From: Povalibacter uvarum
GTDB lineage: Bacteria > Pseudomonadota > Gammaproteobacteria > Steroidobacterales > Steroidobacteraceae
Assembly: GCF_014202975.1 (NCBI RefSeq)
Contig: NZ_JACHHZ010000001.1
Coordinates: 310,001 to 374,000, forward strand
Length of the DNA: 64,000 nt
Direction: 5' to 3'
In this document: one piece after another, positions 2,424 through 40,069 of the stretch
How the letters are laid out: every line of letters starts with the position of its first letter
How positions within the stretch are numbered: position 1 is the stretch's first letter
Program-made: the position numbers and the translations under genes
The notes under the pieces: model-generated
The model's database searches: none
The model's input: only the letters and a program-made list of their open reading frames with translations
What the model was told of the DNA's origin: nothing

Positions 2424-2521
2424 GCTATGAGCGGTGAGCGGCGAGCTGCTAGCCAGAGGGGCGACGCTGGCTGCCAGCCTGCGCTACTCGGATTTCTGGC
2501 TCACAGCTCATAGCTCACCGC
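2424..2521. repeat. Inverted pair of heptamer arrays (GCNNTGA units)
   Basis: The left array has five consecutive 7-nt units at 2424-2458: GCTATGA, GCGGTGA and then GCGGCGA, GCTGCTA, GCCAGAG. The right array at 2494-2521 has four exact 7-nt units in the opposite orientation; read on the minus strand they begin GCGGTGA, GCTATGA. The two arrays face each other across about 35 nt, so the transcript can form an imperfect long hairpin. The element fills the gap between two converging genes and starts 5 nt after the DUF1841 stop codon. Confidence 0.75.
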
Positions 2522-2526
2522 TTCCC

Positions 2527-2961
2527 TCATCTCAATCTTCGCACTCGTTCGAGGTAGCTCTGCTCATCCGGCGGCATGCCGCTGCGCTGTGCTTCCCACA
2601 ACGTCTCGGCGAGGCAGTCGATCAGGCGGTGTTCGGCCTCATGGGGATCGCCCATGCGCTTCACCACGTCGTCGAATGCCTTGCGAATGCCGGGCGGTCG
2701 ATCCGTTGCGAGTTGATCGCGGATGGCAAGGTGCAGGCCCATGTGGAGGAACGGATTCGACTGGCCGCCCTCGGGCGTGTAGTCGCGATCGATCACATCG
2801 TCGCGCGCCTCGAGTGCGGTCTGGTATTCGGGATGCAGGTCGATGACGTCGGCCACCTGCATCTCGAGCGGCTCCATCGGCAGGCCGGCGCGGCGTTTGC
2901 GCCAGGCATCGATGTAGACGGCTCGAAGCTGGTCGCGGGACTGAGTGTCGAAGAAGGGCAT
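2527..2961 (-). CDS. DUF1841 family protein
   Basis: A 144-residue soluble protein recognised as DUF1841 from its MPFFDTQSRDQLR start, the HPEYQTALEARD segment and the NPFLHMGLHLAIRDQ block. The last block carries conserved His and Arg residues. The function is not established. It is the last gene of the rsx-nth minus-strand run, 21 nt downstream of nth, so it is probably co-transcribed with electron-transport and base-excision-repair genes. No signal peptide or membrane segment is visible. Confidence 0.85.
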   Translation of the reverse strand: MPFFDTQSRDQLRAVYIDAWRKRRAGLPMEPLEMQVADVIDLHPEYQTALEARDDVIDRDYTPEGGQSNPFLHMGLHLAIRDQLATDRPPGIRKAFDDVVKRMGDPHEAEHRLIDCLAETLWEAQRSGMPPDEQSYLERVRRLR

Positions 2962-2982
2962 GGGTCGGATTCTAGAGTGTCG

Positions 2983-3696
2983 TCAGCGCTTCTTCGACCG
3001 CGTCTGCGATCGTGCCGCGATGCGAGCGCCGATCGGCGTGCTGGATGGCCTGGCCGGCGCCGCCGCCTTGGTCTTGTCCTTGAACTCGCACAGGTCCGCG
3101 ATGAGGCATTCGGGGCAGCCGGGCTTGCGGGCGAGGCAGACGTAGCGGCCGTGAAGGATCAGCCAGTGGTGAGCGTCCTGCTTGAATTCGTCAGGGACTA
3201 CCTTCAGCAGCTTGTCCTCGACGGCACGAACGTCCTTTCCTCGGGCAATGCCGGTGCGATTCGAGACGCGGAAGATGTGCGTGTCGACAGCGATCGTGGG
3301 ATGGCCGAACGCAGTGTTCAGGATCACGTTGGCTGTCTTGCGTCCGACGCCCGGAAGCGCCTCGAGTGCTTCCCGCGATTCGGGGACTTCGCCGCCATGA
3401 CGTTCGATGAGCAGCCGGCAGGTCGCGATGACGTTCCTCGCTTTCGTGTTGAACAGGCCGATCGTCTTGATATAGCGCGACAGACCTTCCACACCCAACG
3501 CCAGGATGGCTTGCGGCGTGTTCGCCTCGCGATAGAGCACTCGCGTCGCCGCGTTCACGCCTTTGTCCGTTGCCTGCGCGGACAGGATCACCGCGACGAG
3601 CAGTTCGAACGGGGTTCGATACTCGAGCTCCGTGGTCGGATGCGGGCGAGCGGCTTTCAGGCGCTTGAAGATCTCAGCGATTTTGATCGGGTTCAT
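2983..3696 (-). CDS. nth: Endonuclease III
   Basis: DNA glycosylase/AP lyase that removes oxidised pyrimidines. All hallmarks are present: the helix-hairpin-helix LPGVGRKTANV with catalytic Lys120, catalytic Asp138 (AVDTH), and the [4Fe-4S] loop with Cys187, 194, 197 and 203 in C-x6-C-x2-C-x5-C spacing. These numbers coincide with the E. coli enzyme. The C-terminus is extended by about 25 basic residues (237 versus about 211). Its start overlaps the end of rsxE by 23 nt, the familiar rsxABCDGE-nth arrangement. Confidence 0.97.
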   Translation of the reverse strand: MNPIKIAEIFKRLKAARPHPTTELEYRTPFELLVAVILSAQATDKGVNAATRVLYREANTPQAILALGVEGLSRYIKTIGLFNTKARNVIATCRLLIERHGGEVPESREALEALPGVGRKTANVILNTAFGHPTIAVDTHIFRVSNRTGIARGKDVRAVEDKLLKVVPDEFKQDAHHWLILHGRYVCLARKPGCPECLIADLCEFKDKTKAAAPARPSSTPIGARIAARSQTRSKKR

Positions 3697-4282
3697 GCCG
3701 GTGACGATTCAGGAACCAGTTGCGGACTGCGAGCAGCAGGCCGAGCGCGATGAATGCGCCGGGCGGCAGCATGGCCAGCAGGAATCCCATGTCGGAAGGA
3801 AACAGTTGCACACGATCCATGCCTGTCCACTCGGCGGCATGCAGCAATGAGCCACGGCCGACGAACTCGCGCGCGGCGCCGAGAATCACGAGGACGAGCA
3901 GCACGGAGAAGCCACGGCGCGCGGCGTTGGTGAGTGCGATGCGTACGGATTGTCCGGGAGGCAGCGTCAGCAGTGCGAGATTCGCTACGAGCAGCGGCAG
4001 GAAGAACGCGAGCGTGTCGTAAAGACCATGCAATCCTGCATCGAGCCAGAGCGACATGCAGCCGATGACAGTCGCGAGCATGAGCATCCGCAACGCGTGC
4101 GTTATGCGCGATGGCAACGACGCAGGCAAAGCCGCCGTGAGCGCGACGAAAATCCACGAGAACAGCAGGGCGACACCGATGCCGAAAGCGCTCGCGAGCG
4201 TATCGCTCATCGCTACGGCGGGGCAGAGCGCTACGACGAGCCAGCGGGTTGACTGCAGTCCAGTCGGTGTCGCTTGGTTCAT
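3674..4282 (-). CDS. rsxE: Electron transport complex subunit RsxE
   Basis: Integral membrane subunit of the Rsx/Rnf complex, which couples electron flow between NADH and ferredoxin-type carriers to ion movement and in E. coli keeps SoxR reduced. About 202 residues with roughly six hydrophobic segments; the first carries VVALCPAVAMSDTLASAFG, typical of the RnfA/RnfE pair. The frame is open much further upstream, but the ATG at 4282 is chosen because it overlaps the rsxG stop codon (ATGA) and gives the normal family length. The C-terminus overlaps the nth start. Confidence 0.93.
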   Translation of the reverse strand: MNQATPTGLQSTRWLVVALCPAVAMSDTLASAFGIGVALLFSWIFVALTAALPASLPSRITHALRMLMLATVIGCMSLWLDAGLHGLYDTLAFFLPLLVANLALLTLPPGQSVRIALTNAARRGFSVLLVLVILGAAREFVGRGSLLHAAEWTGMDRVQLFPSDMGFLLAMLPPGAFIALGLLLAVRNWFLNRHRHEPDQNR

Positions 4283-4923
4283 GGCGACGCTCCAGAGGAG
4301 GTCGCAAAGATCTGATCGCGTCTCGCTCCGTAGTACTCGAGAGCACGGCGTGTTGCCTTCACGATGGCTCGGGGCGTCAGTGTCGCGCCGGTGAAGCTGT
4401 CGAAGTCGCCGCCGTCCTTGCGAACGCTCCACCGCTGCTGAGGCGGATCGGCGAGCGAGCGGCCGCGGAAGTTCTCGATCCAGTCGCGGCGACGGTTCTC
4501 GAACTGATCGCCGAGGCCCGGTGTTTCCTGGTGGCGGACGACCTGCACGCCGATGAGCGAACCATCGTAGGCAATTGCAACCAGCAACCCGATGGGCCCG
4601 TGATAGCCATCGGGTGCGACGGTGTGCAGGATCGCAGCGACGGGTTCGCCATTGCGGCGTGCGCGGTAGATCGGCACCGGCTGGGGGATGCCGAGGATGT
4701 CCGGCGACACGACGTCGATCCGGTCGGTGAGCAGATCGTTGTCGTGCGACGAAGGAGCGACCAGCGCGTCGAGGCGCTGCTGAATCCATGCCTGTCGATT
4801 GCGCTCGATGCGGTCGTGCGTCGCCCCGGCCACCAGCGACAACACCGCCGCGAACGCGACGGCGCACGCGATCAGGATCGCTGCCGATGCGGGACGCGAC
4901 AAGGAATCAGCGCGAGTGGCCAT
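4279..4923 (-). CDS. rsxG: Electron transport complex subunit RsxG (covalent FMN)
   Basis: A 214-residue protein with one N-terminal membrane anchor (about 12-34) and a periplasmic FMN-binding domain. The covalent flavin motif SFTGAT ends at Thr181, the residue expected to carry FMN through a phosphoester bond. It transfers electrons between RsxD and the rest of the Rsx/Rnf complex. Its stop overlaps the rsxE ATG by 4 nt, and its start lies inside the end of rsxD (17-nt overlap), indicating translational coupling along the operon. Confidence 0.94.
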   Translation of the reverse strand: MATRADSLSRPASAAILIACAVAFAAVLSLVAGATHDRIERNRQAWIQQRLDALVAPSSHDNDLLTDRIDVVSPDILGIPQPVPIYRARRNGEPVAAILHTVAPDGYHGPIGLLVAIAYDGSLIGVQVVRHQETPGLGDQFENRRRDWIENFRGRSLADPPQQRWSVRKDGGDFDSFTGATLTPRAIVKATRRALEYYGARRDQIFATSSGASP

Positions 4924-5935
4924 AGATGCGGGGCACGGTGAAGCGGTCGATCAACGGCGCCGAGAGGTTCATCAACAGCACAGCGAATGCGATGCCGTCA
5001 GGGTAACCACCCCAGCTGCGGATGACGTACGTGATCACGCCGATGCCGGCGCCGTAGATCAGCTTGCCGCGATCGCTGGTCGCTGAAGTGACTGGATCCG
5101 TCGCGATGAAGAATGCCCCGAGCATGCTTGCACCCGCGGTCAGGTGAAACATCGGTCCCGGATAACTGCCCGGATCGACGGCCGACATGATCGCGGCGGG
5201 AATCGTCAGCCCGGCGAGCATGGCGACGGGCGTATGCCAGCGGATGAGGCGTTGTGAAAGCAGCCATACACCGCCGGCAAGCAGTGCAACGTTGATCCAG
5301 TCCCAGCCTCGTCCTCCGAGCATGCCGAAGATCGGCTGGGCGGTCGCTTCCTGCAGCGTCTGGCCCATGGCCACACCGGTTCTGAGCGCGTTCAGCGGCG
5401 TCGGCGACGTGACTGCGTCCCATTGCAGCGAGGTCGGCAGCGAGCCCGTGAAGATCGTATGGAGCGTCTCAGGGAGGCTGAACGCAACGGTTTGCAGCCC
5501 GGAGATGTCCGGCGGCAACCAGCGCGTGAGCTGCGCCGGAAACGAAACCAGCAGTACGGCGTAGCCGACCATCGCGGGATTGAAGGGGTTCGAACCGAGT
5601 CCGCCGTAGAGATGCTTCGCCACGAGAATCGCGAAAGCGGTGCCGCTGACGATCAGCCACCAGGGAGCGAGCGGTGGCAGGCACAGTGCGATCAGTACGG
5701 CAGTGATCGCGGCGCTGCCGTCCATCAGGAACTTCTGCACCGGCTGGCCACGCAGGCGCAGTGCGAGGGACTCCGCTGCGACTGCGGCTGTGACTCCGAG
5801 CAGGATCTGGATCACCAGGCCGGGTCCGAAGAAGATGATGTGCAGACAGATCGCGGGCAGCAGGGCGTAGAGCACCTGTCGCATGACGCGACCGACCGTG
5901 TTCGCGGGAGCAACGGTGTGTGGCGCGGCGGTCAT
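4907..5935 (-). CDS. rsxD: Electron transport complex subunit RsxD
   Basis: A 342-residue polytopic membrane subunit of the Rsx/Rnf complex, related to NqrB. Hydrophobic helices run from about residue 20 onward. DAVTSPTPL at 173-181 falls where the family carries its covalently flavinylated Thr (Thr179 here). The Ala that normally precedes that Thr appears to be Pro, a small deviation worth an alignment. GGLGSNPFNPAMVGYA is a strong family signature. The start ATG overlaps the rsxC stop (ATGA). Confidence 0.94.
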   Translation of the reverse strand: MTAAPHTVAPANTVGRVMRQVLYALLPAICLHIIFFGPGLVIQILLGVTAAVAAESLALRLRGQPVQKFLMDGSAAITAVLIALCLPPLAPWWLIVSGTAFAILVAKHLYGGLGSNPFNPAMVGYAVLLVSFPAQLTRWLPPDISGLQTVAFSLPETLHTIFTGSLPTSLQWDAVTSPTPLNALRTGVAMGQTLQEATAQPIFGMLGGRGWDWINVALLAGGVWLLSQRLIRWHTPVAMLAGLTIPAAIMSAVDPGSYPGPMFHLTAGASMLGAFFIATDPVTSATSDRGKLIYGAGIGVITYVIRSWGGYPDGIAFAVLLMNLSAPLIDRFTVPRIYGHSR

Positions 5936-7374
5936 GGCGGCGATTTGCGCCCCGTGATTTCGCGTCGCTTCTGTTCCAGTCGCGCTCGTTGTTCATTTTC
6001 GATGCGCACGAGCCGTTCGCCTCGTGCCTCGTAACGTTGCCGCGACAGATGGGCCTCGCTGCGCGCCAGAAGCTCGGCCTGCACGGGTACCTTGGCTTCG
6101 CGGAAGCGTTGCGTGAGCGGGATCTGGCTCGGGCATACATAGTCGCAGCAGCCGCACTCTATGCAATCCATGAGTCCGAAGGACTCGAGCGCAGCGACAT
6201 CGTGGGCTTGTGCCTGCCAGTGCAGTTGCTGCGGCAGCAGCCAGGCAGGGCAGACTTCGGAGCAGTTGCCGCAACGGATGCAGGGCATCTCAGCGCTGCG
6301 CGGGTGCAGGTCCGAGGGCGAGGGCACGATGACGCAGTTCGAGCCCTTCACGATCGGCAGCCGGTCGTCGCTGAACGCCAGGCCCATCATCGACCCGCCC
6401 ATGATGAGGCGTCGGTCGTCGGTCGTGTAGCCGCCGCAGTCCGCAATCAGGCTGGCGATCGGCGTCCCGAGCCGCGTCTCCAGGTTCGCCGGCTCCCGCA
6501 CGCCGCTGCCGGTGATCGTCACGATGCGGGTGATCAATGGCTCGCCATCGCGAATCCATCGCGCGACGGCGGCGGCAGTGCCCACGTTCTGACAGAGGAT
6601 GCCGATGTCGGAAGGCAGCCGGCCGGCTGGAACCTCGCGGTCGGTGACGGCAAGGATCAATTGCCGCTCGCCGCCTGCGGGATAAACGTCCGGCAGAGTG
6701 GCGATGCGGATGTGCGGCTGAACCTGCGCCGCTGCCGCTCGCAGTGACGCAATGGCTTGCGGAACGTCATCTTCGACAGCAATCGTGCATGACACGGTTC
6801 CCAGCGCGTGCATGAGCACATGCGCCCCGAAGACAATATCCGCTGCCCGCTCGCGCATGAGCATGTCATCGCAGCTGATCCAGGGTTCGCATTCCGCGCC
6901 GTTCAGAAGCAGGTGCAGATCGGGCTGCGCAACCGCTTGCGAGAGTTTGCTGGCTGTCGGGAACGTCGCGCCTCCGAGTCCGACGATCCCGCCGCGTGCA
7001 ATGTGATCACTGAGCTGCGCCGGCGACATCGACGCGTAGTCGACTGCTGTATTGGCGTTGTCGCGCCGGTCCGCGAAATCATTGCGAATCACAATGCAAG
7101 GCGACGACGCAGCGTGATACGCGACTGGCCGGGGTTCCACGGCGATGACGCTGCCGGAAACTGGCGAATGCACCCACGCACTGATGTCCGACGTGGGCTC
7201 GGCGATGGGTTGTCCCAGCAGTACCGCGTCGCCGACCTTCACGAGCGGTCGCGCCGCTGTGCCCGCGTGCTGATCCAGCGGAAGAATGACTTCGGCGGGC
7301 ACGGACGCCGCACGAAGCGGCGCGGCTGTGGAACGCTCCTTGTTCGTTTCCAGGCGCAGGCCGCCGCCCGTCAT
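5932..7374 (-). CDS. rsxC: Electron transport complex subunit RsxC
   Basis: Peripheral NADH-oxidising, FMN/Fe-S subunit of the Rsx/Rnf complex. About 480 residues with a Gly-rich nucleotide site (GIVGLGGATFP, then LLLNGAECEPWIS). Two [4Fe-4S] ferredoxin motifs sit near the C-terminus: CIRCGNCSEVCP and CIECGCCDYVCP. It is the short form and lacks the long repetitive tail of the E. coli protein. Two starts compete: ATG at 7374, used here, and GTG at 7386, which overlaps the rsxB stop (GTGA). Both keep the N-terminal GG-x-L motif. Confidence 0.94.
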   Translation of the reverse strand: MTGGGLRLETNKERSTAAPLRAASVPAEVILPLDQHAGTAARPLVKVGDAVLLGQPIAEPTSDISAWVHSPVSGSVIAVEPRPVAYHAASSPCIVIRNDFADRRDNANTAVDYASMSPAQLSDHIARGGIVGLGGATFPTASKLSQAVAQPDLHLLLNGAECEPWISCDDMLMRERAADIVFGAHVLMHALGTVSCTIAVEDDVPQAIASLRAAAAQVQPHIRIATLPDVYPAGGERQLILAVTDREVPAGRLPSDIGILCQNVGTAAAVARWIRDGEPLITRIVTITGSGVREPANLETRLGTPIASLIADCGGYTTDDRRLIMGGSMMGLAFSDDRLPIVKGSNCVIVPSPSDLHPRSAEMPCIRCGNCSEVCPAWLLPQQLHWQAQAHDVAALESFGLMDCIECGCCDYVCPSQIPLTQRFREAKVPVQAELLARSEAHLSRQRYEARGERLVRIENEQRARLEQKRREITGRKSPP

Positions 7375-7382
7375 TGCGCGGA

Positions 7383-7901
7383 TCACGTCACTGCTCCGGT
7401 CATCGCCGCCTTCGGCCGCATCTCGATGCAATCGACGGGGCAGGGCGGGATGCACAGTTCGCAGCCGGTGCAGTCATCCGTGATGACGGTGTGCATGAAC
7501 TTCGAACCGCCGATGATGGCATCCACCGGGCACGCCTGAATGCACTTGGTGCAGCCGATGCAGACGGCCTCATCGATCCAGGCGACCGCGGGTTGCGCCG
7601 GCATGACGCCGAATTTCGGATCGACGGCGATCGCCTCGCGTTTCAGCAACTCGGCGAGTTCGATCATCGTGCGTTCGCCGCCGGGTGGGCACTGGTTGAT
7701 GCCGGCTTCTCCACGAGCGATCGCGGTCGCATACGGCTTGCAGCCTTCGAACGTGCAGCGGCGGCATTGGGTCTGCGGCAGAAGATCGTTGATGCGATCG
7801 ATCAGTCGACTCTCGTTGCTCGCTGGTGATTCGCGCGGCCACAACAGGGCGACTGCCAGCAGCGAGACCAGGGCGAAAGTGAGAGCGAATGCGGCGAACA
7901 T
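7383..7901 (-). CDS. rsxB: Electron transport complex subunit RsxB (polyferredoxin)
   Basis: A 172-residue membrane-anchored iron-sulfur protein of the Rsx/Rnf complex. The N-terminal anchor covers about 2-20. It is followed by a [4Fe-4S] domain ([11 protein letters not shown] with a fourth Cys in NQCPPGG), then two ferredoxin motifs ([12 protein letters not shown] and [12 protein letters not shown]). It relays electrons between RsxC and the membrane flavoproteins. Only 3 nt separate it from rsxA, and its stop may overlap a GTG start of rsxC. Confidence 0.95.
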
Positions 7902-7904
7902 GCG

Positions 7905-8474
7905 TCAGTCGCCCAGGATGCCGATCAGTCCCATCAGCGAGAGCGCCATCAAGCCCGTCGTGATGAGGGCGAGCGGCGCGTCGCGGAAGGCGGCCGGCGC
8001 ATTCGCCTGGCGGATACGCTGCTGCAACGTCGTGAATGCGAGCAGCAGGAGTGCGAACAGGATACCGAGCCCGATGCCGGCCCAGACTGCATTGCTGAAC
8101 CGATCGATCCCGGTGCTCAGCAGCGCCACGCCGAGCACGGCGCTGTTCGATGTCATCAGCAGGGTGAACATCGGCTGCACCGGTGTCCAGCGCGAGGATC
8201 TCGCCATGACTGATGAGAGGATCTGCGCCAGGAGAAGAATGAGGATGACGAGGGCGAAGGTGCGCAGGTAGCCCAAAGCGAAGGGCTCGAGGATCAATCT
8301 CTCCAGTGCGTAGCCGAGCGGCGCGACGACGGACAGGAGGGCCAGCGAGCCGACAGCGATCCCAGTGGTCGCATCGAACTCATCGGTCTGTTCGAACGCT
8401 CTCAATCCCGTCAGCGCCGGCGCGTAGTGGCAGACCAGGACGGCGCTGAGCAAGATCAGAAGGAGCGAAGACAT
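7905..8474 (-). CDS. rsxA: Electron transport complex subunit RsxA
   Basis: First gene of the rsx operon. A 189-residue polytopic membrane protein with about six hydrophobic segments, homologous to NqrE and paralogous to RsxE. ALLTTSNSAVLGVALL-like text (seen here as TLLMTSNSAVLGVALL) contains the Asn-rich segment typical of RnfA. No clear Shine-Dalgarno precedes the ATG. Upstream lies a heptamer repeat array separating the operon from metG, so the operon promoter must read through the metG end or lie in that array. Confidence 0.92.
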   Translation of the reverse strand: MSSLLLILLSAVLVCHYAPALTGLRAFEQTDEFDATTGIAVGSLALLSVVAPLGYALERLILEPFALGYLRTFALVILILLLAQILSSVMARSSRWTPVQPMFTLLMTSNSAVLGVALLSTGIDRFSNAVWAGIGLGILFALLLLAFTTLQQRIRQANAPAAFRDAPLALITTGLMALSLMGLIGILGD

Positions 8475-8483
8475 GACGGAGAA

Positions 8484-8549
8484 GCGGTTGGCGGTTGGCG
8501 GTTAGCGGTTCGCAAGAGCCCGAAGGGGCGTCCGCTAACCACTGGTCAC
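8484..8549. repeat. Inverted heptamer array (GCGGTTA/G units) after metG
   Basis: Four uninterrupted 7-nt units at 8484-8511 (GCGGTTG, GCGGTTG, then GCGGTTA, GCGGTTC) face an inverted copy at 8532-8549. On the minus strand the latter begins GTGACCA, GTGGTTA. The metG stop codon lies within the right arm. The same unit recurs at 17019-17046 and 40056-40069. The arms can pair in the metG transcript, so the element may act in 3'-end formation or stabilisation. Confidence 0.75.
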
Positions 8550-10669
8550 TTCACTTTCATGCCCGGGGTGGCGCCTGCGTCCGGCGACAGCAGGAAGATG
8601 TCTTTGCCGCCGGGGCCCGCGGCGAGAACCATTCCTTCCGACGTGCCGAACTTCATCTTGCGGGGTTTGAGATTGGCAAGCACCAGCGTCAGGCGGCCGA
8701 CGATCTGGTCCGGGGTGTACGCAGAACGGATACCCGCGAACACCGTGCGTTGCGCATCGCCGATGTCGACCGTGAGCTTCAGCAGCTTGTCCGCGCCTTC
8801 GACGAACTCGGCCGCGAGAATCTTCGCGACGCGGATGTCGATCTTCGCGAAGTCGTCGACGGTGATTTCGCCTGCGGGGGGCTGCTGGCTACTGGCTTGC
8901 TGGCTGCTGGCCGGAGCCTCGGGTTGCTTCTTTGCGGCTTCGTTCGCGCTTTCGAACAAAGCATCGAGTTGCTTCGGGTCGACGCGCGTGATCAGCGGCT
9001 TGAAGGTGCCGAAGGCATGGCCGGTCGGCAGGAACTTCGCCGGCGTCGAGCCTTGGGCGAACAGATCCCACGTGAGCGGGCCACTGTTCAGATACTCCTC
9101 CGCTTGTTCGGCCAGCGCCGGAAGGATGGGCTTCAGGAACAGCGTGAGTGCCTTGAACGTCGCGATGGCGGACGCGCAGATCTCGCCGAGTTTCTGCAGA
9201 TTGGCGGCGTTGCTGGCCGCGTCTTTCGCGAGGATCCAAGGCTTGTACTGGTCGACTTCGGCATTGACCTTGTCGGCGATCTCCATCGCAAGGCGGATCG
9301 CGCGGCTGAACTCGCGTTCTTCGAACGACTCGCGGATCTCATTCGCGCGCTCGAAGGCCGCGCTCAGGGCCGCGGTCTGCGCAGGCAGGGCGGGCATGCG
9401 GTTGTCGAAGAACTTCGCAAGGAACGGCGCCATCCGGCTGGCGATGTTCACGTACTTGCCGACGAGATCCGAGTTCACGCGCGCGACGAAGTCTTCCGGG
9501 TTGAAGTCGATGTCTTCGACGTTCGCATTGAGCTTCGCCGCGATGTAGTAGCGGAACCACTCGGGATTCATGCCGACTTCGAGATACCGTAGCGGACTGA
9601 TGCCAGTGCCGCGCGACTTGGACATCTTCGCGCCGGACACGGTGATGAAGCCGTGGACGTAGACGTTGTTCGGCACCTTCTGTTTCGCGAACTTCAGCAT
9701 CGCGGGCCACAACAGCGTGTGGAAGTAGATGATGTCCTTGCCGATGAAGTGGATCTGCTCGACGTCGGGCGCAGCGAGGAATTCCTCGTAGCTGCGCGAT
9801 TCGCCGTTCGCACGCGCCTTGCCGCTGTCGAAGTAGTTCTTCAGCGAAGCGAGATAGCCGATCGGTGCATCGAACCACACGTAGAAGAACTTGCCCGGCG
9901 CGTCCGGAATCGGAATGCCGAAGTAGGGTGCATCGCGCGAGATGTCCTTGTCGGTCAGCTCCTGATCGCCCTGGCCTTCGAGCCATTCACTTGCCTTGTT
10001 CTTGACGGCAGGCTGAAGGCGCGGCGTTCCGTCGACCGTCGCGTTCAGCCATTCGCGCATGAACTGCTTGCAGGCCGGATCGGAGAGCTTGACGAAGAAG
10101 TGATCCGACGTGCGACGCACGGGTGTGGCACCGGACAGCGTCGAGCGCGGATTGATGAGATCCGTCGGTTCGTACGCCTTGCCGCATGCCTCGCACGCGT
10201 CTCCGTACTGATCCTGCGTGTGGCAGTTCGGGCATTCGCCTTTCACATAGCGATCGGCGAGGAACATGTTCTTGACCGGATCGAAGAACTGTTCGACCGG
10301 GCGCTTCTCGACCAGCCCGGCCGCATCGAGATTGCGGAAGATGAGCTGCGTGAGCGCGGTGTTCTCCGGCGAGTGCGTCGAATGCCAGTTGTCGAAGTGG
10401 ATGTGAAAGCCGTTCAGATATTTCGGCCGGTCTGATGCGATCCGGTCCACGAGCTGCTCCGGCGTGATCCCTTCGGCTTCCGCCTTCAGCATGATCGGCG
10501 CACCGTGCGCATCGTCAGCGCCCATCCAGTGAACCTTGTTGCCCACCATGCGCTGGAACCGCACCCAGATGTCCGCCTGGATGTACTCCATGATGTGCCC
10601 GATGTGGAACGGACCGTTCGCGTAGGGCAGTGCCGTCGTGACGAAGAGATGGCGCGGGCTGGAAGTCAT
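8546..10669 (-). CDS. metG: Methionyl-tRNA synthetase
   Basis: Charges tRNA-Met. About 707 residues with the class I motifs HIGH at about 21-24 and KMSKS at about 346-350. The zinc knuckle has two CxxC pairs (CPNC, CEAC) at about 145-163. A C-terminal EMAPII-like tRNA-binding domain ([14 protein letters not shown] onward) supports dimerisation. The linker between the anticodon domain and that tail is a Ser/Gln/Ala tract encoded by a heptamer repeat (8881-8911). The ATG at 10669 is preferred over an in-frame TTG at 10684. The stop codon sits in a repeat arm. Confidence 0.97.
8881..8911 (-). repeat. Heptamer array inside metG, translated as a linker
   Basis: Read on the minus strand, this is a run of CCAGCAG, an 8-nt CCAGCAAG, CCAGTAG, CCAGCAG and CC. 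It is translated as two ASSQQ-like blocks (residues about 584-597 of MetG), exactly in the flexible linker before the C-terminal tRNA-binding domain. The unit CCNNNAG is the same as the intergenic array at 24343-24373, including the occasional 8-nt unit. This indicates that an element of the intergenic family has been accommodated in a coding region. Confidence 0.65.
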
Positions 10670-10750
10670 TGGGGAGGCTGGCAAATCCGGGAGAAAGGCG
10701 GGGGCGGATTATGCCATGGCGGCCGTCGGGGGCGCGGGGCGCGTCACCCG

Positions 10751-11872
10751 CTACCCCACGTCTTTCAGATGCTCGAATTTCGTCTTCGTAATGGCCTTCT
10801 TGTAGGCCTCTTTGCCCGTGATGATGGCTTTGTCCAGCAGGTCCTGGATGGCCGAGTCCATCGTCTTCATGCCGTGAGAGGCGCCACTCTGCATGGTGTT
10901 CTCGAGCTGGTCGAGTTTGCCCTGGCGGATCAGGTTGGCGACAGCCGGAGTGTTCACGAGGATTTCCAGTGCGGCGACACGGCCGGGCTTGCCGGCCCGC
11001 GGGATCAGTTGCTGAGAAATCACGCCGCGCAGCGACGTTGAAAGCATCGCGCGCACGTGCGACTGCTTGTCGGCCGGGAACGCGTTGACCATGCGATCGA
11101 CCGTCGGCGCAGCGCCGTTCGTGTGCAGGGTGCCCATCACGAGAATGCCCATCTCGGCGGCGGTGACCGCGATGCTCATCGTTTCGTAGTCGCGCAACTC
11201 GCCGACCAGGATGACGTCGGGATCTTCGCGCAAGGCGGAGTGCAGGGCGTCGGCGAACGACGGGCTGTGGGTGCCGATCTCGCGCTGGCTGATCAGGCAG
11301 CTCTTGCGCGGATGGACGAATTCGATCGGGTCTTCGATCGTGAGAATGTGGCCTTTCAGGCGCGCGTTCATGTCGTCGATCATCGCGGCGAGCGTCGTCG
11401 ATTTGCCGGAGCCGGTCTTGCCCGTCACGAGGATCAGGCCGCTGTTCACCTTGCACAGGTTGCGTACGGCGTCCGGCATGTTGAGCTGATCGAGCGTCAG
11501 CGCTTTCGACGGGATCGCCCGGCACACGCAGCCGAGTCCGTAGAGATGGCGCATCACGTTCACGCGGAAGCGCGAAACGCCCGGAATGATGTACGCGAAG
11601 TCGGCGCCGTGCTTTTCCTCGAGCCGCAACTGCGCGGCGCGGGGCATGATCTCCATGAGCACTTCCTGCACGAACTCCGGCTTCAGCGCGTCGGGACGCA
11701 GGTTGTGCAGTTCGCCGTACAGGCGGATGCGCGGCGGGTCGCCGGCGATGAAGTGCAGATCCGAGCCGTTGCGGCTCAGCACGTCCTTCAGGAACTCGTC
11801 GATCTTGCGCGGGACGTACTGATTGCTCGTACCGCCCGTCGCGGGAGAGGTGCCGGTGGCTTCGGTGCTCAT
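10751..11872 (-). CDS. PilT-family type IV pilus motor ATPase (paralog 1)
   Basis: Hexameric secretion/retraction ATPase of the PilT/PilU family, 373 residues, acting at the inner-membrane base of type IV pili. After a disordered N-terminus (about 1-20) come a PAS-like N-domain (GSDLHFIAGDPPRIR), Walker A GKTGSGKST at about 147-155, an Asp box (LTIEDPIEFVHP), Walker B ILVGELRD and the His box GTLHTNGA. AVANLIRQGK corresponds to the retraction-linked AIRNLIRE motif of PilT. The stop of the neighbouring paralog is 4 nt upstream. Assignment between pilT and pilU is uncertain. Confidence 0.88.
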   Translation of the reverse strand: MSTEATGTSPATGGTSNQYVPRKIDEFLKDVLSRNGSDLHFIAGDPPRIRLYGELHNLRPDALKPEFVQEVLMEIMPRAAQLRLEEKHGADFAYIIPGVSRFRVNVMRHLYGLGCVCRAIPSKALTLDQLNMPDAVRNLCKVNSGLILVTGKTGSGKSTTLAAMIDDMNARLKGHILTIEDPIEFVHPRKSCLISQREIGTHSPSFADALHSALREDPDVILVGELRDYETMSIAVTAAEMGILVMGTLHTNGAAPTVDRMVNAFPADKQSHVRAMLSTSLRGVISQQLIPRAGKPGRVAALEILVNTPAVANLIRQGKLDQLENTMQSGASHGMKTMDSAIQDLLDKAIITGKEAYKKAITKTKFEHLKDVG

Positions 11873-11876
11873 GGAA

Positions 11877-12971
11877 TTATCCCGGCGCCAGATCCAGCTT
11901 CGGCAGAACGCTGGTATCCGTGACGTAGCGGGCGAAGAGTTTCTTGTCGGACGCGTAGACGTAAGCGTCGTCGGCGTCGATTTCCTTGGCCTGCACGTTG
12001 GCGAGCAGGGCCTGGTCGAGCATCTGCATGCCGAGGTCCTTGCCCGTCTGCAGCTGCGAGGGAATCTGATGGGTCTGGTCCGTCATGATCAGCTTCGCGA
12101 TCGCGCGCGTGACGATCATGATTTCGCAGATCGCCTTGCGGCCGCGCTGATCCGGCGTCTTGACCAGTACCTGCGTGACGACGGCGATCAGGCTCTGCGA
12201 AAGGAAGCTCTTCGTCTGCTCGCGCTCGTCGGCCGGCAACGCGTCGACGATACGATCGATCGTCTTCACGGCGCCGGTCGTGTGCAGGGTGCCGAGGACC
12301 AGGTGGCCGGTTTCGGCGGCGGTCATCGCCCAGCGGATCGTTTCGGCGTCGCGAAGCTCACCGACCAGGATCACGTCGGGGTCTTCGCGCATCGCTGCGC
12401 GAACGCCTTCGGAGAAGGAGGGCAGGTGCGTGTTCAGCTCGCGCTGGATGACCTGGCTCTGCTTGCTCTTGTGCACGAACTCGATCGGATCCTCGAGGCT
12501 GATGATGTTCACCCGGCGTGTCTGGTTCAGGTGATCGATCATCGCGGCCAGCGTCGTGGACTTGCCGGTGCCGGTCGAGCCGGTCACCAGGATCATGCCC
12601 TGGTGGTTGTCGCAGAGCTTCTTGATGGTGGGCGGCAGGCCCAGCCGGTCGAGCGTCGGGACCTCGGACGGAATGGCCCGGAACGTGGCGCCGACTCCGG
12701 TGTCCTTGCGGAACACGTTGACGCGGAAGCGGCCGCCGTTGGCCGAGACATACGAGAAGTCCACGTCGAGGCCGCGGCGCAGCTGCTCCTGGTTCGGCTT
12801 GCTCATGATCTCGGCGACATAGCCCTCCAGTTCCACCTGGCTCAGGTCGCGGAACTTGATGGGCATCAGGTCGCCGTACATCCGCAGCATCGGCGGGAGG
12901 CCGACGGCGAAATGGATATCGGAGCATCCCTGGTCGGTGCCGAGCTTGAGGAAGGCGTCAATGCGGGCCAT
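11877..12971 (-). CDS. PilT-family type IV pilus motor ATPase (paralog 2)
   Basis: Second PilT/PilU-family ATPase, 364 residues. The N-domain starts GCSDIHFAVGLPPMLRMYG. Walker A GSTGTGKST is at about 129-137, followed by SLEDPIEFVHKS, Walker B ILVGELRDAET and GTLHTTGAVKTIDR. The C-terminal region, with AIAKLIMTDQ in place of AIRNLIRE and an extra tail after residue about 330, is less PilT-like, so it could play the PilU accessory role. It is tightly coupled to paralog 1 and lies 131 nt downstream of the HEAT/kinase gene. Confidence 0.87.
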   Translation of the reverse strand: MARIDAFLKLGTDQGCSDIHFAVGLPPMLRMYGDLMPIKFRDLSQVELEGYVAEIMSKPNQEQLRRGLDVDFSYVSANGGRFRVNVFRKDTGVGATFRAIPSEVPTLDRLGLPPTIKKLCDNHQGMILVTGSTGTGKSTTLAAMIDHLNQTRRVNIISLEDPIEFVHKSKQSQVIQRELNTHLPSFSEGVRAAMREDPDVILVGELRDAETIRWAMTAAETGHLVLGTLHTTGAVKTIDRIVDALPADEREQTKSFLSQSLIAVVTQVLVKTPDQRGRKAICEIMIVTRAIAKLIMTDQTHQIPSQLQTGKDLGMQMLDQALLANVQAKEIDADDAYVYASDKKLFARYVTDTSVLPKLDLAPG

Positions 12972-13102
12972 GCGGTGGCGATGGGCTCAAATGGCTTGTC
13001 TGCCAACAGCCTACAGGGGATTGGCTCCCGCGGGGAGGGGGCGGGCAATCCATCGGACGAAGTGGCGAATGGCGGGGACGAGTGGCCCCGCCCGGAGTGA
13101 GC

Positions 13103-15502: not shown

Positions 15503-15863
15503 CGAGTCGTCTCGGTATCCTTCGCTCCGGGCCGGGCTTTGAATGCGAATCCTGGTTCGCCCCAGGTTTTATTTCGCCAGATCCTCGCAAGCGTAACCGC
15601 CTCTGGCTGTGGGGCGAAATGAACCTTTGTCCGGTGCATTCGAGCGCTGGCGCGGATTATGCCACGACTGCTGCGCAGCAACCGCCCACCGCGCATCAGA
15701 ATTTCCCTCATAGATGCGAGTTCCGGTGCTGCTACGAGGCTGCGCGGAAGCATGACGGGCGCATTCCGCTACAATCCGTGCCCCATTCGAGCCGCTTGGG
15801 GTTTTCCCTCAGCGGCCGTTTTCGCTCCCGCGCATGCGGGATTCATCCGGGACCGATCGCTAC
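15503..15863. other. Divergent intergenic region between the HEAT/kinase gene and apbC
   Basis: No convincing gene is present in these 361 bp. Visible signals are a CATAAT hexamer on the minus strand near 15655-15660 (kinase side) and TACAAT at 15770-15775 on the plus strand (apbC side), both without a good -35. A small hairpin, CCTGG/CCAGG at 15551-15566, is followed by TTTTATTT; on the plus strand it could terminate antisense transcription. Confidence 0.4.
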
Positions 15864-16958: not shown

Positions 16959-17018
16959 TTCTTCGTCGAGGTTGACGATCGAGCATCAACCCCCGACATT
17001 TAACGTCTCACTCCCCCC

Positions 17019-17046
17019 AACCGCTAACCGCCAACCGCTAACCGCT
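17019..17046. repeat. Four tandem heptamers (AACCGCT/C) just upstream of dcd
   Basis: Four exact 7-nt units follow one another: AACCGCT, AACCGCC, then AACCGCT twice. The last ends 7 nt before the dcd ATG, so they occupy the region where a ribosome-binding site would be expected, and none is visible. They are the reverse complement of the units at 8484-8511. No matching inverted arm was found nearby. Confidence 0.7.
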
Positions 17047-17053
17047 ACTCCTT

Positions 17054-17617: not shown

Positions 17618-17629
17618 TTGGGGAGATGG

Positions 17630-17680
17630 GTGACCGGTGACGCGTGACGAGTCAGAAGGCCGGCTCGTCAGTCGTCACTG
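17630..17680. repeat. Inverted heptamer arrays (GTGACGN units)
   Basis: Left array: GTGACCG, GTGACGC, then GTGACGA, GTCAGAA at 17630-17657. Right array at 17662-17680, on the minus strand: GTGACGA, CTGACGA, GCC. It fills the space between the converging dcd and DUF3108 genes, and the right arm contains the DUF3108 stop codon. The architecture is the same as at 2424-2521, with a different unit sequence. Confidence 0.7.
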
Positions 17681-27350: not shown

Positions 27351-27472
27351 GATTTTCCACGGGGTACACGGGGAGCCACGGGGGAAGCACAGAAATAATC
27401 CCACCTGAATCCTCCCGTTCCCGGCAGGCGTCATTCTTCCCCGTGGTGCCCCGTGCTCCCCGTGGAGAATCC
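27351..27472. repeat. Inverted repeat of 9-nt CCACGGGGN units upstream of prfC
   Basis: The left arm 27351-27387 contains three CACGGGG blocks spaced about 9 nt. The right arm 27436-27472 carries three CCCCGTG blocks plus GAGAATCC. The arms match as reverse complements over about 37 nt with few differences and a 48-nt gap. The right arm ends 51 nt before the prfC ATG. The same right arm appears at the left edge of the window (1-31). Confidence 0.8.
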
Positions 27473-29119: not shown

Positions 29120-29131
29120 TCGTCGCAAGAG

Positions 29132-29235
29132 GAGTTTCACACGGAGTTCACGGAGAACACGGAGAAGAATTTTTTTAACGTTTCTGATCCGGCCTCCGTG
29201 CTCTCCGTGCTCTCCGTGAACTCCGTGTGAAACTC
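29132..29235. repeat. Inverted repeat of 9-nt CACGGAGNN units downstream of prfC
   Basis: The left arm 29132-29164 starts GAGTTTCACACGGAGTTCAC and continues with CACGGAGAA units. The right arm 29194-29235 is its reverse complement, with about 25 bases identical and the rest differing by single bases. The gap is 29 nt and includes a run of seven T at 29170-29176. A further CACGGAGAAGAA copy at 29254-29265 provides the ribosome-binding site of the next gene. It begins 13 nt after the prfC stop. Confidence 0.85.
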
Positions 29236-29265
29236 CCGTTCCTGTTCGCATCCACGGAGAAGAAA

Positions 29266-35318: not shown

Positions 35319-35333
35319 GAGCAGCAGCCGTCG

Positions 35334-35397
35334 CGTTAGCGGGTGACCTGTAACGTGTAGCGGACTTTGGGCCCGATTGCACGCCGCACTTCACACC
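35334..35397. repeat. Degenerate heptamer arrays between moxR and valS
   Basis: On the plus strand GTTAGCG, GGTGACC, then TGTAACG, TGTAGCG run from 35334. On the minus strand, directly after the valS stop, GTGTGAA and GTGCGGC, GTGCAAT follow. A 7-nt rhythm with G/T-rich units is visible on both sides of a GGGCCC centre, but the units are less regular than at the other sites. Confidence 0.4.
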
Positions 35398-38235
35398 TTA
35401 CGTATTCTCGCCCTTCAGCCGCCGCACCCGGCGTTCCTGTTCCTCGATCTGGGCGATCTCGCTGCGCCGGTCGGCGATGCGGCCACGTTCCTCTTCGACG
35501 ACGGCCGGAGGCGCGTTCGCCACGAAGTTCTGGTTGCTGAGCTTCGCCTCCGACTTGGCGATCTCCTGCACGATCTTCGCCTTGCGCTTGGCAAGTCGCG
35601 CGAGCTCCGCGTCCGGATCATCGATGAGGCTCGCCAGCGGCGCGTGGATCGTCTGGCCATCGATGAGTTGCATGGCCGTCGGCGGCAGCGCCGCCTCGTC
35701 TGCAATCGGCTGGATCTCGGTGACGTTCGCCAGGAAGCGGATCAGCGCGGCACTGCCTTCGATCAGTTTCCAGTCAGCGGCCGAGCTGGCCTTGATGAAC
35801 ACAGGGAACTGACGCGAGCGCGCGACGTCGAGTTGTCCACGGATCTGGCGCACGCCGAGGATGATGGCCTTGATCGGCGAAATGGCTTCCTCGGCCTCCT
35901 GGTCGATCGGGAAATCCGAGTCGAGCGGATAGCGCTGCAGCATGATCGTCTGCGGTGCCGGGTCGCGGGTTCGCGGGTTATCGTCGTCGAACCCGCGAAC
36001 CCGCGGCCCGGCACCGGACTGCCAGATCTCTTCAGTCACGAACGGCATGAGCGGGTGCAGGAGGCGCAGATACGCTTCCAGCACTTCGAGCAGCGTGCGT
36101 CGTGCGCCGCGCTTCTGGGCATCCGTCGACGCTTCCGATTGCAGTGCCGGCTTCGAGAGCTCGAGGTACCAGTCGCAGTACTCGTACCACGCGAATTCGT
36201 AGAGCTTCTGCGCGGCGAGGTCGAAGCGGTACTCGCCGAAGAGGCGCCGCACTTCTTCGACCGTCGAGCCGAGTCGCGAGCGGATCCAGCGATCGGGGAC
36301 CGAGTATTCCACCGGCTGGTTGTCGAAGCCGTTGTCGTGGCCTTCGGTGTTCATCAGAACGTAGCGCGCTGCATTCCACAGCTTGTTGCAGAAGTTCTTG
36401 TAGCCGTCGATGCGGCCGAGGTCGAAGCGGATGTCGCGACCCATCGTCGCCAGCGACGCGAAGGTGAATCGCAGCGCGTCCGTGCCGTAGGCGGGAATGC
36501 CTTCGGGGAACTGCTTGCGCGTCGCCTTCTCGATCTTGGCCTTCAGATGCGGCTGCATCAGCCCGGTGGTGCGCTTCGTCACCAGCGACTCGAGATCGAT
36601 GCCGTCGATGAGATCGAGCGGATCGATGATGTTGCCTTTCGACTTCGACATCTTGTCGCCGTTCTCATCGCGGATGAGGCCGGTGATGTAGATCTCCTTG
36701 AAAGGCACTTCGCCCGCGAACTTCATCCCCATCATGATCATGCGCGCGACCCAGAAGAAGATGATGTCGAAGCCCGTCACCAGAACCGTCGTCGGATAGA
36801 ACGTCTTCAGCGCCGCCGTCTGGTCGGGCCAGCCCAGCGTCGAGAACGGCCACAGTGCCGAGGAGAACCACGTATCCAGCACGTCGTCATCGCGTGTGAG
36901 CTTGACGTCGTTGCGGCCGAGGTTGCCCTGCGCCTGCTGGAGGGCATCGGTTTCCGAGCGCGCGACGTACACGTTGCCCTGGTCGTCGTACCACGCCGGA
37001 ATCTGGTGTCCCCACCACAGCTGGCGGCTGATGCACCAGTCCTGGATGTTGTGCATCCACTGGAAGTACGTTTTCGCCCAGTTGTCCGGCACGAACCTGA
37101 TACGGCCATCCTCGACCGCCTTGATCGCGGGCTCGGCCAGAGGCGCGATCCGCACGTACCACTGATCGGTGAGCCATGGCTCGAGAATGGCGCCGCTGCG
37201 GTCGCCGCGCGGGACCGGCAGCGAGTGAGGCTCGATCTTCTCGACGAGACCCTGCGCTTCGAGCGCGGCGACGATTTGCTTGCGGGCTTCGAAACGGTCC
37301 AGGCCGCGATACTCCGCGGGCACCTCGTCGTTCATCGCTGCATTGGCATCGAAGACGTTGATGAGCGGCAGGCTGTGGCGCTTGCCGATCTCATAGTCGT
37401 TGAAGTCGTGTCCCGGCGTGATCTTGACGCAGCCCGAGCCGAAGGCCGGGTCGACGTAGTCGTCGCCAATGACGGGGATCAGTCGATCGGTCAGAGGCAG
37501 GTGGATCTTCTTGCCGATCAGGTGGCGATAACGCTCGTCTTCCGGATGAACGGCAACGGCTGTATCGCCGAGCATGGTTTCCGGGCGGGTCGTTGCGACC
37601 ACCAGATGACCCGAACCGTCGGACAGCGGATAGCGCAGATGCCAGAGGCTGCCCTGTTCCTGTTCAGCAAGCACTTCGAGATCGGAAAGGGCGGTGTGCA
37701 GCACCGGATCCCAGTTCACGAGCCGTTTGCCGCGATAGATGAGGCCGTCTTCATACAGACGCACGAAGACTTCGGTGACGGCGACGGAGAGGCCCTCGTC
37801 CATCGTGAAGCGATCGCGCGACCAGTCGACGGAATTGCCGAGGCGTCGTTCCTGGCGGGAGATCGTGTCACCCGACTGCGCCTTCCATTGCCACACGCGT
37901 TCGACGAACGCGTCGCGGCCAATGTCGCGACGATGGATGCCTTCCGCGTTGAGCTGGCGTTCGACCACCATCTGCGTCGCAATGCCGGCGTGATCGGTGC
38001 CGGGCTGCCAGAGCGTCTTGTCGCCTTCCATGCGGTGGAGGCGGGTCAATGCGTCCATGAGCGTGTGCTGGAACGCGTGCCCCATGTGCAGCGTGCCCGT
38101 CACGTTGGGCGGCGGAATCATGATGCAGTACGACTTGCCGGTGCCGCCGCTCTCGCGGGGGGCGAACCAGCCATTTTCCTCCCACCGCTCGTAGATGCGC
38201 TGTTCGATATCGCGGGGGGTGTAAGTCTTTTCCAT
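35398..38235 (-). CDS. valS: Valyl-tRNA synthetase
   Basis: Charges tRNA-Val and edits mis-activated Thr. About 945 residues from ATG 38235. HMGH is near 47-50, the editing domain has [24 protein letters not shown] is near 526-530, and a C-terminal coiled coil covers about 880-945. Residues about 741-761, between EEIWQ and TIMLQRYP, are encoded by a perfect-looking palindrome and are about 10 residues longer than the E. coli loop. A TATAAT -10 lies on the minus strand at 38272-38277. The frame is open farther upstream, without homology. Confidence 0.97.
35955..36014. repeat. Palindromic element translated in frame inside valS
   Basis: Arms 35955-35979 and 35990-36014 are reverse complements at 24 of 25 positions, with a 10-nt loop. 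Each arm contains 8-nt units of the CGCGGGTT type. The element is read through in the valS frame and encodes a charged Pro/Arg/Asp-rich loop. Such long perfect pairing is not expected from coding constraint, so it looks like an inserted mobile palindrome. Confidence 0.8.
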
Positions 38236-39118: not shown

Positions 39119-39121
39119 GTC

Positions 39122-39574
39122 GTGTCCGAGGAACGGTTTCGCTACTTTCTGCGTGTACGTTACGGCGAGTGCGACGCGCAGAAAGTCGTCTTCAATGCAC
39201 GCTATGCCGACTACGTGGATCTGGCGACGGCGGAACTGCTGCGTGCTCTTGGTTATGAGCACGAAATACAGACGGCTGAACTGGACTACCAGCTCGTCAA
39301 GCAGACGATCGAGTGGAAAGCGCCCGCGCGCTATGACCAGGTCCTCGAAGTCTCAGTCGCGGCGAAGCATCTCGGGAATACGTCGTTCACGCTCGCGACC
39401 GAGTTCCGGATCGCGGGAGAGGAAAGGGTCATCGCCACCGCCGAGACGGTCTATGTCCATGTCGACACGCACACACTGCAGAAGCAGGCTTTGCCGCGGC
39501 AATTCCGTGATGCGCTCACGCGAGGCGCGAGCGGAGTGGCGATCGATCACGCGGGGTGGGCCGCGAGCAGGTGA
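39122..39574 (+). CDS. Hotdog-fold acyl-CoA thioesterase (4-HBT family)
   Basis: A 150-residue hotdog protein of the YbgC/4-hydroxybenzoyl-CoA thioesterase group. RVRYGECDAQKVVFNARYADY carries the catalytic Asp (of ECDAQ) and the helix-start motif. ETVYVHVDTHTLQ is the final strand. The start is GTG 39122, almost abutting the TSUP gene, so the two probably form a unit. The acyl substrate is not evident. Confidence 0.85.
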   Translation: MSEERFRYFLRVRYGECDAQKVVFNARYADYVDLATAELLRALGYEHEIQTAELDYQLVKQTIEWKAPARYDQVLEVSVAAKHLGNTSFTLATEFRIAGEERVIATAETVYVHVDTHTLQKQALPRQFRDALTRGASGVAIDHAGWAASR

Positions 39575-39602
39575 GGTCGGCGCGCTGTGGCGAATTCAGT
39601 GA

Positions 39603-40034
39603 CTAGAGGTTGTGCGACTCCAGCTCGCACCCGCGCTCCCGATAAGCCTTGTACCGTTCTCTCGACAGCCGCTTGTTCTCCGGATCGACATCGACGATTT
39701 CCGCGATCCGTTCGAAGCTCTCGACTTCGGTCGGCAGCGCATTGGTGAGATTGATCAGCAGTTGCCGGTGAGTGGAGGGCGGCGGCGCATCGCCGAGCAA
39801 TACAGCCACGCGCTCGTGCGTGGCTGCGTCGCCGTGCAGGACTTCATGCGGAATGAAGCTGCGCTCGTTGAACGTCCACAGCATGTCGTCGAGTCGCTGG
39901 GCGTCAGCGAGCGAGCCGGTCTGAACATAGACACGGATGTTCTGGTCGAACGCCTTCTCGACCAGCCGGCACGCGATGCGCAACCGCGCATCGGGGCCTT
40001 CCTGCGACAGCACGTAGAAATCGACCCGGCTCAT
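39603..40034 (-). CDS. holC: DNA polymerase III subunit chi
   Basis: A 143-residue clamp-loader accessory protein that links the polymerase to SSB. Family motifs: VDFYVLS at the start, RIACRLVEKAFDQNIRVYVQT, LDDMLWTFNERSFIPHEV and PVLLGD-like VAVLLGDAPPP. It lies between pepA and valS as usual, but a TSUP and a thioesterase gene on the other strand are inserted between holC and valS. Confidence 0.94.
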   Translation of the reverse strand: MSRVDFYVLSQEGPDARLRIACRLVEKAFDQNIRVYVQTGSLADAQRLDDMLWTFNERSFIPHEVLHGDAATHERVAVLLGDAPPPSTHRQLLINLTNALPTEVESFERIAEIVDVDPENKRLSRERYKAYRERGCELESHNL

Positions 40035-40055
40035 GATTCGTCAGCTGTCATTCCT

Positions 40056-40069
40056 AACCGCCAACCGCT
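40056..40069. repeat. Two heptamers (AACCGCC, AACCGCT) after pepA
   Basis: Two exact units of the family found at 8484-8511 and 17019-17046. They lie 3 nt beyond the pepA stop codon, in the 37-nt gap before holC. On the minus strand they are followed by GGAATGA and CAGCTGA, which keep the 7-nt rhythm. Confidence 0.5.

Follow-up and report, generated by a model that had tools for sequence, protein, structure and literature searches.

The GGGAATC heptamer of Xanthomonas campestris and X. axonopodis is the closest described relative found for the intergenic arrays treated here, which consist of tandem 7-, 8- or 9-nt units and occur in a 64,000-nt stretch (the window) of Povalibacter uvarum DNA (GCF_014202975.1, contig C1, positions 310001-374000). 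The papers cited by accession are used in excerpt, and comparisons with them hold for those excerpts. In two Xanthomonas genomes, GGGAATC repeats form convergent pairs, and most of the repeats have four units. They are scarce between divergent genes, their long forms are not shared beside the same genes, and they are treated as G-quadruplex formers (PMC4692102). TAACTGA direct repeats of Beggiatoaceae, Cyanobacteria and Bacteroidetes are intergenic heptamers with a patchy distribution among species. Indels between two Cyanothece strains are mostly 7-nt steps, and close relatives have shorter, repeat-free spacers (PMC4679880). Short tandemly repeated repetitive (STRR) sequences of Calothrix comprise several tandem heptanucleotides in one genome (cited in PMC4692102).

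The present arrays share the tandem short unit, the enrichment in spacers and the convergent facing pairs with GGGAATC. One unit was studied in Xanthomonas (PMC4692102), whereas here a single genome or genus combines several units and the periods 7, 8 and 9. Its units are RGCGGTT, GAGCNRY, GTGACNN and others rather than GGGAATC, and 119 of 202 arms lack even a two-tetrad fit. A change of unit within one orthologous spacer, purine-rich edges and one gain polarised by outgroups set the arrays further apart. The TAACTGA repeats are likewise intergenic, heptameric and patchy among species, with shorter repeat-free spacers in relatives. Their main genome holds 169 direct sets and one indirect set, mostly just upstream of start codons, and facing pairs are not a theme in the excerpts (PMC4679880). 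The STRRs also comprise several heptanucleotide units per genome; this likeness is one of description, not of sequence. They had been named as the nearest known thing in a first-pass annotation of the window, which was a fair lead, although the Xanthomonas heptamer is closer. REPINs of the REP-RAYT system, built from repetitive extragenic palindromic (REP) sequences, are extragenic inverted pairs able to form hairpins, as here (PMC3116915). The present arrays differ in not tracking Y1 genes, in variable and unique loops and in arms built of repeats, and a preferred arm distance was not found. Among the titles and abstract openings listed in open-access searches, with most subscription papers outside the search, none described several units and periods in this layout in one genome, nor Steroidobacter repeats. 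The arrays are new in combination, not in basic kind.

Abundance and Layout of the Arrays

The P. uvarum genome (6.32 Mb, 11 contigs) was compared with 13 congeners (G001-G013), 14 genomes together. An uncultured Steroidobacter metagenome-assembled genome, with 85% identity in metG, was the closest named relative, and the genus of the set is inferred from it to be Steroidobacter. Spacers were delimited with a purpose-written gene caller (coding fraction in P. uvarum 0.90-0.93), and spacer scans of this genome cover 864 kb from contigs C1 and C2 with 512 spacers. A spacer counts as an array spacer if it carries a lag segment scoring at least 9; simulated spacers and a rate scaled from genes served as null. 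Lag-7 arrays occur in 58 of the 512 spacers, against a simulated mean of 1.0 (five simulations) and a gene-scaled expectation of 1.2. Over the 864 kb, 69 lag-7 segments reach a score of at least 10 and 36 a score of at least 14, compared with 3 and 0 in one order-3 Markov simulation. In genes, the frequency of such arrays is close to that expected by chance. The first-pass annotation had named a frequency no higher than in shuffled spacers as a result that would refute its heptamer class, and this result did not appear. Lag 9 is also raised (18/512 spacers vs gene-scaled 5.6). Lag 8 is little raised in P. uvarum (5 spacers) and clearly so in the congener G012, where period 7 occurs in 34 of 182 spacers, period 8 in 12 and period 9 in 4. 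A lag-14 signal in 46 spacers of P. uvarum is read as a harmonic. Period-7 arrays were found neither in 100 spacers of G001 nor in 70 of G009. The annotation was mostly right: the arrays are real, and more general than it could see. Its statement that period and orientation stay the same while the unit differs holds for orientation and only in part for period, as periods 8 and 9 also occur.

Layout was read from a pooled set of 1402 spacers from 11 genomes, of which 158 carry an array of period 7, 8 or 9. The typical array has 3-4 copies of its unit. Fifty-eight spacers contain two related arrays (one pair counted in each): 52 of these are facing pairs that begin with the G-rich arm, 2 are facing pairs that begin with the C-rich arm and 4 are direct, so that the arrangement is inverted in 54/58. 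Counting every pair by a purine criterion yields 56 purine-first, 2 reverse, 6 direct and 19 unrelated pairs. Lone arrays follow the same rule more loosely, those on the left side of a spacer being purine-rich in 73 cases and pyrimidine-rich in 16, and those on the right side in 21 and 71, with 29 neutral. Divergent spacers are depleted of arrays, making up 16 of the 158 array spacers vs 28.8% of spacer bases (p 1e-8) or 19.2% of spacers by count (p 0.0015). The median distance from array to gene edge is 10 nt vs 27 under uniform placement, and 55% of arrays vs 28% lie within 12 nt of the edge. Two genomes, G004 and G007 (the latter assembly 75% complete), contribute 33 of the pooled spacers. 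Their assemblies may be contaminated, since the sampled contigs (L146, L149, L223-L242) are low in both G+C (0.35 and 0.47) and coding fraction (0.47 and 0.64).

The loops between paired arms measure 15-160 nt, and the sampled DNA holds no other match to 54/58 of them at E <= 0.01; therefore, no fixed element is being copied. The loops are ruled out as a shared core, and the internal sequence common to copies that characterizes miniature inverted-repeat transposable elements is lacking for the same 54 loops. Purine-rich words are enriched at both array edges, and CAGA is enriched at inner edges (57/202 arms vs 91/1700 background windows). Inner edges match their own partner at 4.33/9 positions vs 3.75/9 for other partners (1/2000 permutations); the agreement of outer edges is less clear (3.98/9 vs 3.69/9; 50/2000). 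Mirroring of the R position between left and right arms was not shown: they agree in 14 of 22 A/G pairs (p 0.39), too small a sample for a decision, three further pairs with C being excluded. The arrays are small non-coding elements, and a facing pair allows a hairpin to form in RNA as well as in single-stranded DNA, whichever strand is taken. On contig L146 of G004 (3562-3762), a GGGATTC facing pair is nested in the loop of a GTGAGTG facing pair.

Repeat Units and their Distribution

RGCGGTT is the commonest unit of P. uvarum, with an estimated hundred or more arrays. The exact pattern GCGGTTNGCGGTTNGCGGTT, three units of the RGCGGTT type with any base between them, has 220 matches in the genome vs 18 in a reversed control. 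Other period-7 units of this genome are GAGCNRY, GCCAGY, RGCGGAT, GTGACNN and GACGGTT; its period-9 units are CACGGAGNN and CACGGGGNN. Long uniform runs occur at a few loci, such as 104 nt of GACGGTT and 59 nt of GAGCAAT. A second dispersed family is that of the CACGGAG nonamer, with 70 exact three-unit matches in P. uvarum. It is present in the congener G002, and no match was found in a draw of 298 other genomes of the phylum, which includes none of the 13 congeners. Three consecutive RGCGGTT units occur genome-wide in P. uvarum and 6 of the 13 congeners (one with a single match), and in 0/46 genomes of other genera. Three AGTCAYN units occur in 5 of the 14 genomes of the genus, P. uvarum not among them. 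G002 has CAGGCKA units and 9-nt units like GTGACGAAG, G010 has CAGTCAY, and G013 has CTGGGCN and others. One core occurs at several spacings in G012: GTGAC at 7 (34 times) and 8 (23), GTGAT at 8 (8) and 9 (11). No core is common to all units. The earlier claim that the arrays share architecture and not sequence is borne out for the layout, which is shared, and for the units, which vary by locus. Its denial of any shared sequence was too strong, as RGCGGTT is widely dispersed. A separate palindromic repeat with TCATTCCCGC has 42 copies, on both strands, in the 864 kb of P. uvarum and is present in several array spacers.

Turnover at Orthologous Spacers

Orthologous spacers differ in the presence of arrays, both before the dCTP deaminase gene (dcd) and at four sites compared between G011 and G001. 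Spacers that never gain or lose arrays, the second observation by which the annotation could have been refuted, were thus not what was seen. In the spacer before dcd, P. uvarum, G007 and G012 carry RGCGGTT, and G010 and G011 carry CAGTCAY. G004 has GTGAGTG and GGGATTC nested there, G002 has a 9-nt pattern (read by eye) and G013 a weak array. No clear period-7 array is present there in G001, G003, G008 and G009. After dcd, GTGAC recurs at period 7 in P. uvarum and at period 8 in G012, and both arrays lead into GTCAGA.

G001 and G011 have 91-95% DNA identity over the compared blocks. Three consecutive RGCGGTT units occur 64 times in G011 and not at all in G001. The four G011 sites were picked for having arrays, and the array is absent from G001 at all four. 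The first spacer, before ileS, measures 158 nt in G011, 17 nt in G001, G003 and G010, and 21 nt in G008. A gain of the array in G011 is the simplest reading of these sequences, because G003 and G010 have 17 nt and G008 has 21 nt. The second spacer, before mutL, measures 147 nt in G011 vs 240 nt in G001. A GGTTAGTGAAG block and part of the loop are common to the two; as read by eye, the G011 array adjoins this block, which is present in the array-less sister as well. Other short arrays occur at mutL in G010 and G013. The third spacer, before ffh (121 vs 41 nt), has short degenerate arms in G003, with about two units vs four in G011 (by eye), and none in G001, G008 and G010. Loss of the array in G001 is possible there, because G003 carries these arms. 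The fourth site differs by a 46-nt gap with altered edges. A check of the four sites for target-site duplications found the spacer replaced or altered, and no clean empty site was read.

Arrays in the Window

The genes of the window include those for methionyl-tRNA ligase, valyl-tRNA ligase, a PilT-family ATPase and dCTP deaminase. Seven heptamer sites had been listed in it, of which four are sound, two are weak and one is unsupported. The convergent spacer 2399-2526 holds a left arm of GAGCNRY heptamers at 2428-2453 (plus strand, lag-7 score 11.5) and a facing right arm at 2499-2517 (minus strand, score 9.5); the RNA fold of 2418-2521 has a z of -3.75. Four RGCGGTT units form a left arm at 8484-8513 (plus strand, score 18) in the spacer 8475-8545 between tandem minus-strand genes, with a decayed facing arm at about 8532-8542 and a fold z of -1.74. 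A lone arm of four RGCGGTT units on the minus strand at 17019-17047 (score 17) directly precedes the dcd start codon at 17054; the gene matches TIGR02274. Between array and start codon (17048-17054) lies CTCCTT, without a Shine-Dalgarno-like sequence, and several further start codons 3' of right arms present the same picture by eye. The convergent spacer 17618-17674 holds a left arm of GTGACNN heptamers at 17621-17652 (plus strand, score 10), with CAGA after it. The facing right arm of about two GTGACNN units at 17664-17678 (minus strand) was read from the sequence, is paired in the fold (z of the pair -2.79) and extends beyond the gene end at 17675. The weak sites are an irregular array of three units at 24343-24363 (plus strand, score 6.5, fold z -0.93) and a two-unit remnant of the RGCGGTT family, the commonest of the genome, at 40056-40069 (minus strand, read from the sequence and under the scoring threshold). 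At 35334-35397, no segment of period 7, 8 or 9 was found at score 6.5, and the fold z is 0.0.

Two period-9 facing pairs had been absent from the earlier list. The first consists of two CACGGGGNN units with a CACGGGG core at 27358-27373 (plus strand, lag-9 score 7) and a right arm at 27449-27464 (minus strand, score 7). The second, with three CACGGAGNN units and a CACGGAG core at 29140-29166 (plus strand, score 13) and a right arm at 29194-29227 (minus strand, score 20), has a fold z of -9.41 over 29112-29240. Four RGCGGTT facing pairs outside the window reach z of -10.1 to -13.8, and 34-55 base pairs form per fold in six facing pairs. Single or decayed arms do not fold well (z -1.74 to 0.15). 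By contrast, the two facing period-7 pairs of the window, at 2428-2517 and 17621-17678, fold well. A search of the window against Rfam returned nothing above the gathering score except a tRNA.

Proposed Origin and Alternatives

In-place growth of short units, combined with a spread of arms between spacers and their retention as gene-end hairpins, is the origin proposed here, tentatively and at somewhat less than even confidence. An arm would be seeded by a few local or incoming bases chancing to resemble a unit. The seed would expand in place through tandem duplication and slipped-strand copying. Arms, not whole elements, would move between spacers via short-homology copying, and such copying would make one unit dominant in a genome. 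Hairpin-forming arrays at transcribed gene ends may be tolerated or kept, as hairpins of REP sequences and bacterial interspersed mosaic elements may be, while those in divergent promoter regions would be lost.

Neighbours within an array differ less than they would in a shuffled sequence of units (233 differences vs 284.6 +- 9.9; period 7, 65 arrays), in agreement with the prediction of tandem duplication. The mutL and ffh spacers, as read by eye, also favour in-place growth. Abundance, facing geometry, location, unique loops, turnover and the gain before ileS count for the proposal as a whole, as does the recurrence of one core at several periods in G012. Growth is seemingly bounded in P. 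uvarum and RGCGGTT fills many spacers; therefore, in-place growth plus arm copying is favoured. The annotation had suggested a process that makes arrays rather than one that copies an element. Several units per genome, sets that differ between species and unique loops speak for that suggestion; the spread of units speaks against its strong form. RGCGGTT with its hundred or more estimated arrays and CACGGAG are dispersed and short purine-rich boundary words recur, so something has also spread between sites. Evidence for a 14-nt superperiod is mixed, given the likeness of adjacent units over all families: RGCGGTT variants alternate in 34 of 50 pairs (expected 24.5, p 0.007; one pair with C excluded), and lag-2 unit identity at period 7 is slightly raised (940 vs 923.3; 40/1000 shuffles). 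A constant arm length independent of period did not prove robust. Medians at score 9 are 27, 28 and 26 (Kruskal-Wallis p 0.53), and lengths differ at score 11 (p 0.015 pooled; G012 9-mers median 38.5, n=4).

Several observations weigh against the proposed origin. RGCGGTT runs in P. uvarum peak at four units (two units 3, three 8, four 20, five 1; n=32), a peak that open-ended slippage does not predict. When the first 100 of the 220 RGCGGTT places were grouped by hand, 40 of 58 runs had four units. The 64 matches of G011, also grouped by hand, have no peak at four (three units 20, four 4, five 8, six 3; n=35). At the ileS site, the more distant G013 has a spacer of 128 nt, its sequence unread. 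The direction of change is clear from outgroups at this single site, and loss in G001 is possible elsewhere. For the most part, the outer flanks consist of a generic motif rich in purines, whose complementarity to the own partner is only slightly above that to others. The growth and copying steps are inferred, and any RNA role of the arrays is putative.

REPIN-like mobile elements, whose arms would be REPs mobilised by a Y1 (RAYT) transposase from another locus of the genome, are an unlikely source. The facing pairs at gene ends look like REPINs, and one Y1 (IS200-like) transposase gene of P. uvarum (L245) is flanked by facing arms of the GGTGCCGGGYCGCGGGTTCGCGGGTT type with a doubled 8-nt unit. 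A GGTGCCGGGYCGCGGGTTCGCGGGTT arm pair is also present in the window at 35954-36015, where facing 26-nt arms with two exact GGTGCCGGGYCGCGGGTTCGCGGGTT matches lie inside the valyl-tRNA ligase gene (valS) and the frame stays open; this pair has the appearance of a RAYT/REPIN that inserted into a housekeeping gene. However, Y1 genes do not track the arrays over the 14 genomes and were rejected as their driver: G009 has two Y1 matches, and its 70 scanned spacers are free of period-7 arrays, and G007 (75% complete), G010, G011 and G013 have arrays and no Y1 match. Seven of the 12 Y1 places were inspected (one partly N), and none is flanked by RGCGGTT, GTGAC, GAGC or CACGGAG arrays. REPs in REPINs are biased to specific distances (PMC3116915), whereas the loops here are unique and vary from 15 to 160 nt. 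The RAYT explanation is weakened by these results, the inspection of flanks covering 7/12 Y1 matches, although one Y1 gene does lie between arms of GGTGCCGGGYCGCGGGTTCGCGGGTT, a facing family of low copy number.

It is quite improbable that the spacing is selected because a protein that binds DNA or RNA recognises the arrays, or because they act as a structural signal (for Rho loading, as a G-quadruplex or as an intrinsic terminator). The strict spacing of units that themselves contain variable positions (GAGCNRY, GTGACNN) and the location at gene ends would suit such a role, but the units share no common core. Rho loading does not fit, as the rut descriptor has YC dimers 9-13 nt apart, a period of 11-15 (PMC9160355, in excerpt), and the arrays are spaced at 7-9 nt. 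A G-quadruplex is not the general cause, as only 83/202 arms fit even the two-tetrad pattern. Intrinsic terminators do not overlap the arrays: of six terminator-like sites in 2000-18000, none lies on a listed array, in a scan covering loops of 3-8 nt. Ordinary simple-sequence repeats from polymerase slippage alone, without function or dispersal, are very unlikely, since the long uniform GACGGTT and GAGCAAT runs, the likeness of adjacent units, the tail of G011 runs to six units and the over-representation of heptamers in many bacteria (PMC4692102) are opposed by the facing G-first geometry, which so far survives controls for spacer composition and unit sharing, and by the four-unit peak in P. 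uvarum, the presence of one unit at very many sites and the near-chance rate in genes.

Occurrence in Other Bacteria and Significance

In 79 loci of other bacteria, 4 facing pairs were found at period 7, 3 at period 8 and 15 at period 9; a single order-2 Markov control gave 1, 0 and 0. The period-9 pairs lie mostly in A+T-rich DNA of low complexity, and each of the periods 4-6 and 10-14 also gave 1-7 pairs. Three period-7 and three period-8 pairs resemble the present class by eye. Similar facing pairs, few in number, occur in two proteobacterial metagenome-assembled genomes (L070, L076) and in the Bacteroidota Niastella (L138) and Longitalea (L137). The three period-8 pairs, from Bacteroidota, have no purine-rich first arm (0.46/0.55, 0.40/0.54, 0.45/0.46) and do not follow the rule. 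A broader view, which appears doubtful at present, is that an unrecognised bacterial process fixes the layout (a few 7-9-nt units per arm, G-rich arm first, purine-rich edges) and not the word. A single type of machinery, at work in both Pseudomonadota and Bacteroidota, would then have made GGGAATC, TAACTGA, the STRRs and the present arrays.

The usual explanation for dispersed intergenic repeats of bacteria is that an element has been copied; in the present arrays, the sequence is replaced while the layout persists. The replacement takes place beside housekeeping genes (tRNA ligases, mutL, ffh) and between species about 7% apart in DNA. The origin of gene-end hairpins thereby becomes directly testable by strain comparison. 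The findings suggest that heptamer families described separately are possibly one class. The arrays may bear on RNA stability and on the survival of long palindromes, because the folds of six facing pairs contain 34-55 base pairs each.

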